Assembly (NCBI GenBank): GCA_022823185.1
Contig: JAJDXQ010000037.1
Span: 1 to 64,000 of the forward strand
From: Caldilineaceae bacterium
Lineage (GTDB): Bacteria; Chloroflexota; Anaerolineae; Caldilineales; Caldilineaceae
DNA length: 64,000 nt
Direction: 5' to 3'
The translations under genes were made by a program, and so were the position numbers. The notes below the pieces were generated by a model. It saw only the letters and a program-made list of their open reading frames with translations. It searched no databases and was not told where the DNA came from. This document shows positions 51,689 to 57,708 of the stretch, piece after piece. Position 1 is the stretch's first letter, and each line of letters opens with the position of its first letter.

Positions 51689-51825
51689 GGTGTCCAGGCT
51701 GGCGTCCTCGGGGATGGGCGCCTGGAGGCCTGATAGTCAGCGGTTATCGCCACGCAGACTGGCACACAGTAACTTAATGTGGGCCGTCTATCGGGCGGGA
51801 AGCGGTCTTGCAAGAAGCCAGGGCA

Positions 51826-52989
51826 ATGAATAAGGTATCTGAAGTTCAGGATGCAGTGAAGGAAGCGAAGCGGATACGGGTGCGGGGCGGAGGCTCCAAG
51901 CCGGCGCTCTCGCAGCGCCGGTGCGCCGACGACACCCAACTGCTCGACCTGGCCGGCTTGCAGGGCATTGTGGACTATCAGCCGGAGGAATACACGTTTA
52001 CTGCGCGTGCCGGCACGACAGTCGCCGAGGTCGCGGCAATGCTGGAGGGGAAGGGGCAGTACCTGCCATTTGATCCGCCGCTGGCGGATCGCGGGGCGAC
52101 GCTGGGCGGCACTGTGGCCGCGGGCCTGAGCGGTTCCGGGCGCTATCGTTACGGCGGCATCCGCGACTTCCTGATTGGCATTCGCTTTGTCGATGGGCGG
52201 GGGCAGGAGATCCGGGGCGGGGGCGCCGTGGTCAAGAATGCGGCGGGATTCGACTTCCCCAAACTGTTCGTTGGCAGTCTCGGGAGACTGGGGGCCCTGA
52301 CAGAGCTGACCTTCAAGGTCTTTCCGCGGCCGCCGGCCTTTGCGACGGTGGAGGCGGAATTTGAAGCGTTGTCCGATCTGTTGACCGGTCTGGATGCGGT
52401 GACGGGCAGCGCGATTGACCTCCATGCGGTCGACTTTGCGCCGGCGGAGGCGGGTTGGAGGCTGTGGGTGCGCATTGGCGGGCTGGCGCCGGCGCTGGCG
52501 GAGCGGGCGGGAGCTCTGCAAGAGATAATTTCAGGGGGCGCTGGACGAACGGGGCTTCTCAGGCTATACCGGGACCAGGAGGAGGAGAGGTTGTGGCAGG
52601 AGGCGAGGACGATGGCGTGGCTGGCTGAGGGTATGGGCCTGGCGCGCGTTCCCCTGACTCCGGGGCGGATTCCGGCGGCCGAGGATCTGTTTGCGCGCGC
52701 GCAGCCGGCTTCGCGGCGCTACAGTGTGGGCGGGAACCTGCTCTGGATCGGCTGGCCAGAATCGGGAGGTTTGGGTGAGACCGACGGGAAACCGGATGCC
52801 CCGCGGACGCTGCACGGCCTGTTGCTGGAATTGGGGTTGCGAGGCGTACAGTTGATTGGGCAGGGGCCGCGAAATGATGGGCTTTCGGAAGGCGGGGAAG
52901 GTCCTTTGCTGGGCGGCCCGGTTCAGAATGCGTTCTTGCGGCGAATATCGGCGGCCCTGGATCCTGAAGGGAAGTTTGGAGCGTGGTAA
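51826..52989 (+). CDS. glcE: Glycolate oxidase subunit E-like FAD-binding protein
   Basis: This 387-residue protein has a PCMH-type FAD domain with RVRGGGSKPALS, PEEYTFTARAGTTVAEV and TLGGTVAAGLSGSGRYRYGGIRDFLIG, and the GlcE-type RGGGAVVKNAAGFDFPKLFVGS. It lacks the long C-terminal domain of GlcD. ATG 51826 has AGGG upstream; TTG 51808 is a weaker option. It partners GlcD and GlcF. Confidence 0.9.
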   Translation: MNKVSEVQDAVKEAKRIRVRGGGSKPALSQRRCADDTQLLDLAGLQGIVDYQPEEYTFTARAGTTVAEVAAMLEGKGQYLPFDPPLADRGATLGGTVAAGLSGSGRYRYGGIRDFLIGIRFVDGRGQEIRGGGAVVKNAAGFDFPKLFVGSLGRLGALTELTFKVFPRPPAFATVEAEFEALSDLLTGLDAVTGSAIDLHAVDFAPAEAGWRLWVRIGGLAPALAERAGALQEIISGGAGRTGLLRLYRDQEEERLWQEARTMAWLAEGMGLARVPLTPGRIPAAEDLFARAQPASRRYSVGGNLLWIGWPESGGLGETDGKPDAPRTLHGLLLELGLRGVQLIGQGPRNDGLSEGGEGPLLGGPVQNAFLRRISAALDPEGKFGAW

Positions 52990-53463
52990 CAGCCGGGGAA
53001 CTGCGGAGGTCAGTGATCAGTGGTCAGTGATCAGTGGTCGTACTACAGCCGCAATTCACGAATTTGCAGTTTTTCCGGAGAAAGTGAGGATGCGAAAGCG
53101 CATTTTGAACAAACAGGGAACTGTATGTACGGCCAGAATAAAGTCACGTCCGCGCCTCTTTTTGCTCTTTCGGTCTTCGGCCACCACGAGTGCGGTTTTC
53201 GCATTCGTGGTGGGGGCGGGGATGGTGGCAAGGCTACCCGGTCCAGGCACTGCCCCGCCCCGTTGATCAGGGAGCGGGCGGCTGGCGGCGTCTGATGGCG
53301 CTGGCGTGCGGCGGCGCGCGAGAAGGGCGGGGCGCGGAGGGGCCGCCGACACAGAGCAAGACGTAAGGGTAGATGGGTGGGGGTTGGGGGAGGCCCTGAA
53401 CTGCAGGGGAAAGGGATTAGGAATTCGTAGATGGTCGCAGAAAAGACTTAGAGGAGAGATTTG
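52990..53463. other. 474-nt intergenic region with repeats and a long hairpin
   Basis: It holds the GTCAGTG tract at 52999-53040 and a hairpin with a 14-bp stem at 53181-53213 (CCACCACGAGTGCG with CGCATTCGTGGTGG, loop GTTTT). I find no gene; the open frames here are shadows of the flanking genes. The hairpin lacks a T-run on either side. The stretch looks like debris of small repeat elements inserted inside the glc locus. Confidence 0.6.
52999..53040 (+). repeat. GTCAGTG-type repeat tract, copy 3
   Basis: Ten bases after the glcE stop a tract begins AACTGCGGAGGTCAGTGATC and continues with three more (A/G)TCAGTG units. It is the most regular of the three copies in the window, and its units contain TGATCA palindromes. 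Confidence 0.75.
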
Positions 53464-54432
53464 ATGAGAGCGATACGTGTAACAGAGGTGGGCGACCCGA
53501 GTGTGCTGACGTGCGTTGACGCGCCGATGCCGGAGCCGGGCGCGGGGGAGGCGCGAGTCCGGATCGAGGTGGCGGGCGTAAACTTTATCGACACCTACCA
53601 CCGGAGAGGCTGGTACCCGCTGCCGCTGCCGTTCACGCCGGGCGTCGAGGGCGCAGGGGTCGTGGATGCGGTCGGCGAGGGTGTTACGGAGGTTGCGGTG
53701 GGGGATGCCGTCGCGTATGGTATGTCGACGGGGTCCTATGCGGAGTACGCAATCGTCCCCTCGAGAGTGCTGGTCAAACGGGGGCAAGGTGTTGACGCGC
53801 AGAATGGCGCGGCGGCGATGATCCAGGGGATGACGGCCCACTACCTTGCGTGCAGCACCTACCCGTTGAAGGAAGGGGACAGCTGCCTGGTGCATGCAGC
53901 GGCTGGGGGTACCGGCGCGCTGCTGGTGCAGATCGCGAAGTTGCGGGGAGCGCGTGTCATTGGCACGGTATCCACGGAAGAGAAGGAGCGCATTGCGAGG
54001 GCAGCCGGGGCAGACGAGGTCATTCGCTATACTGAAGTGGATTTTGCGGAAGCGGTGCGCGACCTGACAGGGGGCGAAGGAGTGGAGGTGGTGTACGACT
54101 CGGTGGGAATCGCCACATTCGACAAGAGCCTGGACTGTTTGAAGCCGCGCGGGTACATGGTGCTGTTCGGCCAGGCAAGCGGTGTTGTACCGACGCTGGA
54201 CCCGCAGATCCTGAACCAGAAGGGCTCGCTGTTCCTGACCCGGCCCACGCTCGCATCGCACATGCTTACGCGGTCGGAGTTGGAGGGGCGCGCCAATGAC
54301 ATCTTCAACTGGATCGCTGAGGGCCAGTTGGAAATCCGTATCGACCGCACCTTCCCTCTCGACGATGCCGAGGGCGCTCATACCTACCTGGAGGCGCGTC
54401 AGACGAAGGGAAAGGTCTTATTGACGACATGA
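53464..54432 (+). CDS. Quinone oxidoreductase/zinc-independent alcohol dehydrogenase-like protein
   Basis: This 322-residue MDR-superfamily NADPH:quinone reductase has [30 protein letters not shown] at residues about 39-68, the nucleotide site [26 protein letters not shown] at about 141-166 and no zinc-ligand cysteines. It is close to the Qor (zeta-crystallin) type. ATG 53464 is favoured by GAGGAGAG 6 nt upstream over the adjacent TTG 53461. It lies 20 nt before glcF, so they are probably co-transcribed. Confidence 0.92.
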
Positions 54433-54451
54433 TTTTGGGGGGCACAGGCTG

Positions 54452-55708
54452 ATGCGCCACACGATTCCGGTCGATTCGCTCGGCCCGCAAGCGCCGTCGA
54501 TGGCGGAAGCCGTTGCCAGTTGCGTACACTGCGGTTTCTGCCTGCCGGCCTGCCCGACGTACCTGGCTTTGGGCGAGGAGATGGACTCGCCGCGCGGGCG
54601 CATCCTGCTGATGAAGGGGGCGCTGGAGGGCGAACTGTCTCAGGAGGATGTCCTGCCGCATGTGGATCGATGTTTGGGCTGCCTGGCCTGCGTGACGGCC
54701 TGCCCCTCCGGTGTTGAGTACGGCGAGCTGCTGACGCCGTTCCGGGAGATGTCGGAGAAGGAGCGGAGCCGTTCACCGCTGGAGAAACTGACGCGGGCGT
54801 TGACAAACCAGACGCTGCCCTACCCGGGACGATTCCGGGCGGCGGCGGCGCTGGGCCGCTATACGAAAGCACTCAGGCCGTTGCTGCCCGCGGCGCTGCG
54901 CACGATGCTGGATCTGTTGCCGGACCGGCTGCCGCCGCGCGCGGCGCTGCCCGCGCTGACGCCGGCCAAAGGTCCGCGGCGGGCGCGGGTCGCGTTGCTG
55001 AGCGGTTGTGTGCAGCAGGTGCTGACGCCGGAGGTGAACCGGGCGACGGTTGATGCGCTAAGCAGGAACGGTGTCGAAGTGGTGATCCCCCCGCGGCAGG
55101 GTTGCTGCGGCGCTCTGTCGATGCATACCGGCGCTGCGGACCAGGCGCGCAGGCTGGCGAAACGCAACCTGGGTGCTTTCAAGATTGACGAAGTGGACGC
55201 GGTGGTGACCAATGCGGCGGGGTGCGGATCCGGCATGCACGAGTACCCGCTGTTGTTCGCGGGCGAGGCGGAAGAGGCGGCGGCGCGAGAGTTTGCCGCC
55301 AAGGTGCAGGATGTCACGGTTTTCCTGGATGCGCTGGGGATGGAGCCGCCGCCGGCGCTGTCAACGCCGACGCGGGTCGCGTACCACGATGCCTGTCATC
55401 TGGCGCACGCCCAGGGCGTGACGGACGCGCCGCGCCGGCTGCTTTCGGCAGTGCCGAACCTGGAGCTCGTGTCGATCCCGGAGGGTGAAATCTGTTGCGG
55501 CTCGGCCGGGACTTACAATATCGAACAGCCGGAGATCGCGGCCGAACTGGGGAAGAGGAAGGCGGAGGCCATCCTCGGCACGGGCGCGCAGGCCGTGGTC
55601 ACCGGCAACATCGGCTGTATGACGCAGATCGACAGCCATCTGCAGCGGCTCGGTCGTCCGTTGCCCATCTACCACACGATTGAGCTTCTGGGCGGAGGCA
55701 GAGATTGA
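54452..55708 (+). CDS. glcF: Glycolate oxidase iron-sulfur subunit
   Basis: This 418-residue subunit has two [4Fe-4S] motifs, [12 protein letters not shown] and [12 protein letters not shown], in the first 90 residues. The two CCG domains follow, with [13 protein letters not shown] and [12 protein letters not shown]. It transfers electrons from GlcDE to the quinone pool. The length is typical. It closes the split glcD-glcE-glcF locus. Confidence 0.95.
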
Positions 55709-56010: not shown

Positions 56011-56916
56011 TCAGCCGGCGAGAATCGGGAAGCCTGAGCTGCGCGTCTGTTCGGCGTACAGCTGGCTCAGGCGCTGGGTGACCGGTCCGCCGTCTCCCGA
56101 CCCAATTGCGCGGCCGTCCAGTTCGATTACGGGAGTCAGTTCGCCCATGGTGCCTGTGCAGAACAGCTCATCTGCCCGGTATAGTTCGGGCAGGGAGATG
56201 TCGCGCGCTTCGGCGAGAATTCGATGCGTCCGGCAGAGGTCCAGCACCGTTGCGCGGGTGATCCCTTCGGGGCAGGCGTGGGTGTGGGGGGTTGCGACGA
56301 CGCCGCGTTTGACGAGGAAGAGGTGGGTAGCGTTGGTTTCGGCGACAAAACCGCTGGTGTCGAGCATCACGGCATCATCGACGCCGGCGGTGTTGGCCTG
56401 GATTTTAGCCAGGATCGAATTGAGCATGTTGCAGGAGTGAATGTTCTGATCGAGGCAGTCCGGGGGGATGCGGCGAATGCCGGAGGTGATGAGACGGATG
56501 CCGCCCCGATCATAGACCGGCGGTTTGTGCTCGGCCAGAATGATGAGAGTCGTGCCGCTGGTATTGATGCGTGGATCCATGCCGCTGGTGTACTTGACGC
56601 CGCGGGTCAAGGTGAGGCGGATATGGACGTTGTCCTGCATGTGATTGGCTTTGAGTGTGCGCCGGACCTGGTCCACGATTTCGTCGTTGGAAGGGACGCC
56701 GTTGTAGGCGAGGGCTTTGGCGCCGTCCTGCAGGCGGGCCAGATGCTCTTCCAGTTTGAAGATACGCCCATTGTAGAGGCGCAGCCCCTCCCAAACGGCA
56801 TCGCCGTTTTGAACAGAGGAGTCGAAAGGGCTGACGCCGGCCTCGTCTCTGTGGACGAGCTGGCCGTTGATGTTGACCAGCAAATCGCGGTTGGCTTCGT
56901 AGAATTTCTGCAACAT
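56011..56916 (-). CDS. Class IV aminotransferase-like protein lacking the PLP lysine
   Basis: This 301-residue protein has the fold of branched-chain/D-amino-acid aminotransferases: DEAGVSPFDSSVQNGDAVWEGLR, RLTLTRGVKYTSG, ETNATHLFLVKRGVVATP, PEGITRATVLDLC and FCTGTMGELTPV. The residue that should be the PLP-binding Lys (IKSLN-type motif) is His160, in DQNIHSCNML. The DNA codon is CAC, so it is not a reading error of mine. The rest of the site is well kept, which argues against a pseudogene. From memory, plant branched-chain aminotransferase-like proteins share the SCNMLNSILAKI region. The sulfotransferase-like gene lies 48 nt upstream on the same strand. Confidence 0.88.
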   Translation of the reverse strand: MLQKFYEANRDLLVNINGQLVHRDEAGVSPFDSSVQNGDAVWEGLRLYNGRIFKLEEHLARLQDGAKALAYNGVPSNDEIVDQVRRTLKANHMQDNVHIRLTLTRGVKYTSGMDPRINTSGTTLIILAEHKPPVYDRGGIRLITSGIRRIPPDCLDQNIHSCNMLNSILAKIQANTAGVDDAVMLDTSGFVAETNATHLFLVKRGVVATPHTHACPEGITRATVLDLCRTHRILAEARDISLPELYRADELFCTGTMGELTPVIELDGRAIGSGDGGPVTQRLSQLYAEQTRSSGFPILAG

Positions 56917-56964
56917 GGTTCAGAACTCCAAGACGGGACAGTTTCCGCCGGGGGTCAGCGCCTG

Positions 56965-57708
56965 TCAGTGTGCATGGCGCGCGGTTGAGAGGCGGAAGCG
57001 GTAGAGCTCCTGGTAGATCTCCTGCGCCTGTGCGAGAAGGTCCTGCAGGTGGGGCGGCGGCCGTTCGTTTTTGGGCCGGTATGGGGCGAAGCCGGTCGAC
57101 TTTTCGACGGCTGCGTACCAGTAGGGAGCCCAGACGCCGTCGCTGTCGCGGCGGCCGGGCGGCCAGGAGAGCATTCGTTCGGAGAATGGGACGGACACGG
57201 CCTCACAGAGAAGAGAGAGCAGGCCGCGGGGATCGGCGAGGACATCCTGGCTGTCGATGACCGGCGGGATGGAGCCGGTTTCTCGGCGCACGGTTTCGAA
57301 AAGCCGCAGCAGCTGAGGGAAGCCGAGGTCCAACAGCGTTGGCTGCGCCCGCACCTTGATATAGGAGGTGATCACCTCGTCCGGCGCCCGAATCAGGAAG
57401 CAGTTGGACAGGTTTTCGATCCAATCCAACTCGATATGGTCCAACATGTGGTGGGCCATATGTTTCTGATAGGAGATCGCAACGCCGGAGGGCAGTGGAT
57501 CTTCGGTGAGGCTGCGGGCGACGACGCGCCAGTCAGTTTCATAGGTGGCGATGATGTCGTCCCGGCCCGGATGATCCATGCCGGTCGCGTGGAGGTAATG
57601 GGCGTAGAACGGCTCGTCGAGCACAGTCGTATCGGGGCGGTTTTCCCAAGCGCGCATCATGGCGGTGGAGACTGTGCGGGGCGCGCACCACATGGCAATC
57701 CGAGTCAT
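56965..57708 (-). CDS. Sulfotransferase-like P-loop protein
   Basis: This 247-residue protein starts with a PAPS-type loop, MWCAPRTVSTAMMRAWENR, followed by LDEPFYAHYLHATG and, mid-protein, CFLIRAPDEVITSYIKVR, the 3'-phosphate-binding-like strand with Arg and Ser. These are the marks of sulfotransferases, but the family members closest to it are uncharacterised. ATG 57708 is used rather than TTG 57720. It precedes the aminotransferase-like gene by 48 nt and is probably co-translated from one mRNA. An activity on an amino-acid-derived substrate is only inferred. Confidence 0.82.
   Translation of the reverse strand: MTRIAMWCAPRTVSTAMMRAWENRPDTTVLDEPFYAHYLHATGMDHPGRDDIIATYETDWRVVARSLTEDPLPSGVAISYQKHMAHHMLDHIELDWIENLSNCFLIRAPDEVITSYIKVRAQPTLLDLGFPQLLRLFETVRRETGSIPPVIDSQDVLADPRGLLSLLCEAVSVPFSERMLSWPPGRRDSDGVWAPYWYAAVEKSTGFAPYRPKNERPPPHLQDLLAQAQEIYQELYRFRLSTARHAH

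Follow-up and report, generated by a model that had tools for sequence, protein, structure and literature searches.

ColD and E1 are relatives of aminotransferases in which a His replaces the Lys, the cofactor is PMP, and the His serves as the acid/base that expels a hydroxyl (PMC8987622). Like these enzymes and SpnQ, all nucleotide-sugar 3-dehydratases, the protein described here, P0001, has a His at the catalytic Lys position; however, they belong to the aspartate aminotransferase-related fold type whereas P0001 is a class IV protein, and they act on sugars and have no sulfotransferase partner. Nearer in fold is 7z79 of Variovorax paradoxus, a class IV protein that is naturally without the PLP lysine and belongs to a sister clade. 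Members of that clade differ from P0001 in having Asn for His and Ser/Thr for Glu193, in often having no sulfotransferase, and in lying in amino-acid ABC operons. For the partner of P0001, the Sulfotransfer_5 (PF19798) protein P0002, the nearest counterparts are the sulfotransferase domains of CurM and olefin synthase (4gbm, 4gox), which are among the best fold matches of the P0002 family but have no aminotransferase-fold partner. These domains reside inside polyketide synthases and act on carrier-bound hydroxyacyl chains. In plants, branched-chain-aminotransferase-like proteins apparently join an N-terminal P-loop/sulfotransferase-like domain and a class IV domain in one chain, and if plants do carry a fused form of the pair, its function would be general and unannotated. 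Chlamydomonas Cre01.g033763, a match by name only, is at most a possible relative. Literature searches for PF19798 together with aminotransferases, for 7z79, and for the plant proteins gave nothing informative, and the papers found contain no description of the plant fusion. A His-type branch of the Lys-less class IV family, linked to a PAPS sulfotransferase, is apparently undescribed in the literature searched.

The locus and its two genes

The window, meaning the whole 64,000-nucleotide stretch of DNA analysed (positions 1 to 64,000 of contig JAJDXQ010000037.1, from a Caldilineaceae bacterium), carries the pair with P0002 upstream and P0001 downstream, both on the minus strand:

56011..56916, minus strand: P0001, His-type class IV aminotransferase-like protein, 301 aa (PF01063, E 1.9e-46)
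56917..56964, minus strand: intergenic gap of 48 nt between P0002 and P0001
56965..57708, minus strand: P0002, Sulfotransfer_5 (PF19798) protein, 247 aa from its ATG (E 3.2e-58)

In most relatives the spacing between the genes runs from 4-nt overlaps to about 100 nt. Among the neighbours of homologous loci no larger conserved operon was found: only the two genes recur widely, the remaining common neighbours being restricted to close Anaerolineae relatives. PADLOC gave no defence-system match for the pair, and a phage link was likewise not found, with P0002 in no phage record and the His-type (A1) family on no viral contig. Adjoining the pair on the opposite strand (51808-55708) are what appear by eye to be glycolate-oxidase-like FAD and Fe-S (GlcF-like) subunits around a quinone-oxidoreductase-like gene.

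Both profile and fold place P0001 in class IV (fold type IV), with a TM score of 0.85-0.88 to 5e25, 5mqz, and 7z79 at 39-44% identity. Its AF2 model has a pLDDT of 85, weaker (about 59-64) at residues 31-40 and 111-120. The residues that matter most for the cofactor, in which invariance refers to alignment A1 of 46 His-type members, are as follows:

56734..56736, minus strand: Arg61, PLP phosphate contact kept; invariant, aligns to IlvE Arg59
56437..56439, minus strand: His160 (codon CAC), at the PLP-lysine position; aligned to the Lys of E. coli IlvE and of the archaeal BCAT 5mqz
56338..56340, minus strand: Glu193, PLP ring-nitrogen partner kept; invariant, Ser/Thr in the Asn-type sister clade
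56257..56262, minus strand: Ile219-Thr220, phosphate-binding cup; invariant
56149..56151, minus strand: Thr256, phosphate contact; invariant

P0001 therefore has His160 where class IV enzymes have the catalytic PLP-binding Lys, together with the phosphate cup and ring-nitrogen Glu of the class. On the substrate side, His-type proteins retain R100 and R105 but depart from IlvE at Tyr31 (Asn/Gly), Phe36 (Trp), Tyr95 (His98), and Tyr164 (Met/Leu), where the IlvE numbering used in the literature is that of the translated sequence minus one. Three further Aminotran_4 proteins are encoded in the window's genome, and since all three have the Lys in a profile alignment, P0001 is not the host's ordinary transaminase.

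The AF2 model of P0002 (pLDDT 95) matches sulfotransferases with Z scores of 13.5-14.8 over 207-214 residues at an rmsd of 3.4-4.8. Olefin-synthase, CurM, and tyrosylprotein types lead, with Z 14.8 to 4gox, 14.4 to 5wrj, and 14.3 to 4gbm. When the family profile was compared with the PDB, the only sequence matches were 4gbm and 4gox. Three stretches bear on its function, all judged against alignment A2:

57664..57687, minus strand: 5'-phosphosulfate (PAPS) loop CAPRTVST, consensus SGPRNIST; P10, R11, S14, and T15 invariant
57613..57615, minus strand: Glu32 in an invariant D-E-P motif, candidate general base
57364..57390, minus strand: 3'-phosphate motif R107-x-P109...S115; invariant, aligns to LVRHP...S of 4gbm/4gox

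The role of Glu32 as general base is one that we presume by analogy with tyrosylprotein sulfotransferases. Profile, fold, and both phosphate motifs agree with those of PAPS sulfotransferases, and on sequence and model P0002 is predicted to be a sulfotransferase with an intact PAPS site. The initial annotation had described a 301-residue class IV protein with His160 (CAC) at the PLP-lysine position, 48 nt after a same-strand gene with a PAPS loop. The first part is upheld by the open reading frame, PF01063, and the alignment with IlvE and 5mqz, and the second by the measured gap, PF19798, and the invariant loop residues.

Distribution of the pair and its Lys-less relatives

A scan of 84,980 species was used to see how general the substitution is. 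His occupies position 160 in all 80 of the closest homologues (65-97% identity to P0001), a count that may be slightly biased in that one of the six search peptides included the His and five did not. These homologues come from Chloroflexota, Planctomycetota, Gemmatimonadota, Acidobacteriota, Actinomycetota, and Proteobacteria MAGs. The initial annotation had allowed that homologues might have Lys here, leaving His to this genome; the alignment speaks against this, and the 80 of 80 also rule out a local mutation or sequencing error at the residue. In later genome profile searches, every full-length member read above 390 bits has His, and those near 250-320 bits have Asn or Lys except for one divergent His protein. 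The very divergent His member L193 (genome G440) carries Lys at the R61 position, and PF19798 is absent from that genome; its lineage has perhaps lost the cofactor or the partnership.

The sulfotransferase gene is present at 61 of the 80 loci and at 60 of these lies within 250 nt, upstream and on the same strand; some of the gene pairs overlap by 4 nt. For the other 19 loci, a PF19798 gene lies elsewhere in the genome in 15 cases and none is detectable in four, the last four being MAGs that may be incomplete. Across 298 genomes of the window's class, PF19798 occurs in 22/22 with the His type vs 9/276 of the others (counted at E < 1e-20), and six of these nine have the Asn type and three neither. 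Across 246 Planctomycetota genomes the figures are 34/34 vs 1/212, where one of the 34 is cut off by a contig edge so that its N-terminal part alone is seen, with residue 160 outside it, and the 212 include the divergent, partnerless L193 genome. The single non-His Planctomycetota genome with PF19798 has an Asn-type gene adjoining it. Fisher p values are 1.9e-26 for the class and 5.8e-41 for Planctomycetota, but these overstate independence because the genomes are related, and part of the co-occurrence is shared descent since the Lys-less clade arose once. Three genomes (G722, G612, and G524) have a strong PF19798 gene and no Lys-less class IV protein at E < 1e-60.

Gene arrangement varies more than gene content. 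Planctomycetota pairs lie within 400 nt of each other in 25 of 34 cases, further along the contig in four, and on other contigs in five. Where His-type pairs are adjacent the sulfotransferase comes first, except in one genome (G550), and in the adjacent Asn-type pairs (n = 5) the aminotransferase comes first, so the pair appears to have been kept or rebuilt in different arrangements. The distance matrices of the two genes correlate (Mantel r 0.59, p 2e-4). Among the sequences examined there is no bacterial gene in which the two are fused; long open frames in G339 and G385 were considered as fusions and rejected, the two domains lying in different frames. An ordinary BCAT with a chance neighbour is ruled out by co-occurrence and adjacency. 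The earlier proposal that the two genes make up one conserved, uncharacterised system is thus borne out by their co-occurrence, by adjacency in most genomes (including the 60 of 80 loci just given), by the occurrence of both gene orders, and by the correlated distances.

The PDB sequence closest to P0001 is 7z79 (42-44% identical), with Asn at the Lys position; 9j32 is the N174K mutant of the same protein. Asn, together with Ser/Thr for Glu193, is common to the 7z79 relatives in Chloroflexota and Proteobacteria, and P0001, with His160 and Glu193, falls outside this type. In a 93-row tree from which the trait columns had been removed, the His, Asn, and Lys types each occupy one side of a branch, His and Asn are split from Lys at 100/99 support, and the His clade adjoins the Asn clade. 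As His and Asn form one clade apart from Lys, the Lys was most simply lost once, before the two diverged. The Asn clade is often without a sulfotransferase, and its proteobacterial genes are mostly found in polar amino-acid ABC transporter operons, a setting which hints that the wider Lys-less family acts on amino acids. The same holds for most of the Asn-type genes on proteobacterial plasmids (L116, L118, and L201-L212). Several of these plasmid loci also have a ClC chloride channel, ornithine cyclodeaminase/ProC-type (imine-reductase-type) genes, MmgE/PrpD, or a choline-sulfatase, which points to the breakdown of an amino acid with release of an anion.

Proposed chemistry and alternatives

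The reading that we prefer, to which this analysis gives roughly even chances, is a conserved two-enzyme module made up of a PAPS sulfotransferase and a Lys-less class IV enzyme with non-covalent PLP or PMP, His160 as acid/base, and perhaps elimination of sulfate. With PAPS as donor, the sulfotransferase would add sulfate to a small metabolite that has a hydroxyl or amino group. Its P0001-type partner would bind PLP or PMP without forming a covalent Schiff base, with His160 serving as the acid/base towards that metabolite. By analogy with ColD/E1, the reaction would more probably be an elimination or replacement than an ordinary transamination, and the leaving group could be the sulfate ester made by the partner. 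The sulfotransferase domains of CurM and the olefin synthase prepare a hydroxyl for elimination in this manner. The initial annotation had offered altered or non-PLP chemistry for the aminotransferase part. Altered PLP chemistry is plausible, as all other PLP contacts are kept, and for the His type a non-PLP reaction is the less likely half of that suggestion.

Serine O-sulfate and beta-haloalanines inactivate normal PLP enzymes when the aminoacrylate formed attacks the internal aldimine. With no Lys, and hence no internal aldimine, a P0001-type enzyme should escape this inactivation, which would connect its missing Lys with the sulfotransferase partner. A tentative proposal, with perhaps one chance in several of being right, is a new PLP chemistry shared between two enzymes, in which the sulfotransferase, with PAPS, activates or sulfonates an amino or keto acid at its beta-carbon or beta-hydroxyl and the Lys-free enzyme, through His and non-covalent PLP/PMP, eliminates sulfate or presents an aminoacrylate. 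If this is true, it is the loss of Lys that would protect the enzyme from the reactive intermediate it forms. In the His type a textbook PLP-lysine signature was lost, apparently a single time, and His then became fixed at its position across several phyla. This offers a natural experiment on how His can substitute for Lys in the class IV fold, and a concrete gene pair for an unassigned sulfur reaction.

The retained PLP contacts, along with R100 and R105 on the substrate side, can also be accommodated by sequential biosynthesis, in which a slow or partner-specific transamination with non-covalent PLP/PMP is followed by N- or O-sulfation of the product. Lys-to-other mutants of class I aminotransferases do keep residual half-reactions, which would lend such a route some chemistry to work with. 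We nonetheless think it unlikely: the IlvE positions Tyr31, Phe36, Tyr95, and Tyr164 are changed in the His type, and a His fixed over several phyla speaks for a required role rather than a slow relic activity.

If the P0001-type protein were a non-catalytic partner of the sulfotransferase, such as a scaffold or an allosteric or metabolite sensor, this would account for the missing catalytic Lys, for the almost complete co-occurrence, and for the translational coupling that is often seen. Yet the mean column identity of the His-type alignment is about 75%, and this, with an invariant PLP pocket and His, exceeds what a scaffold needs, which makes a purely non-catalytic role doubtful.

Highly improbable is the formation of a C-sulfonate, with PLP-bound aminoacrylate made from serine and a sulfo group passed from PAPS to its carbon to give cysteate: this would explain why a Lys-less PLP-fold enzyme pairs with a PAPS enzyme, but the PAPS sulfotransferases known to us act on O or N, and no cysteate or taurine genes are co-located among the conserved neighbours. 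A 2-aminoacrylate sulfotransferase reaction of this kind is named in a diatom metabolic model, where the step is modelled for algae (PMC7990286).

PF19798 genes and PAPS supply

APS kinase, present in 21/22 His genomes of the window's class, was rejected as a discriminating marker for the pair, being too common (226/298 genomes). This enzyme supplies PAPS, and two other PF19798 relatives lie near APS kinase genes. On a Dolichospermum plasmid (L198:7989-8774), a PF19798 relative 43% identical to P0002 is found near an APS kinase gene. Genes for MATE efflux, an amidohydrolase, and a 2OG-oxygenase give this setting the look of a secondary-metabolite cluster. The other relative (L200:2411-6732), a distant one, belongs to an NRPS cluster of Streptomyces and is found near cysC and cysD, again a context of local PAPS supply.
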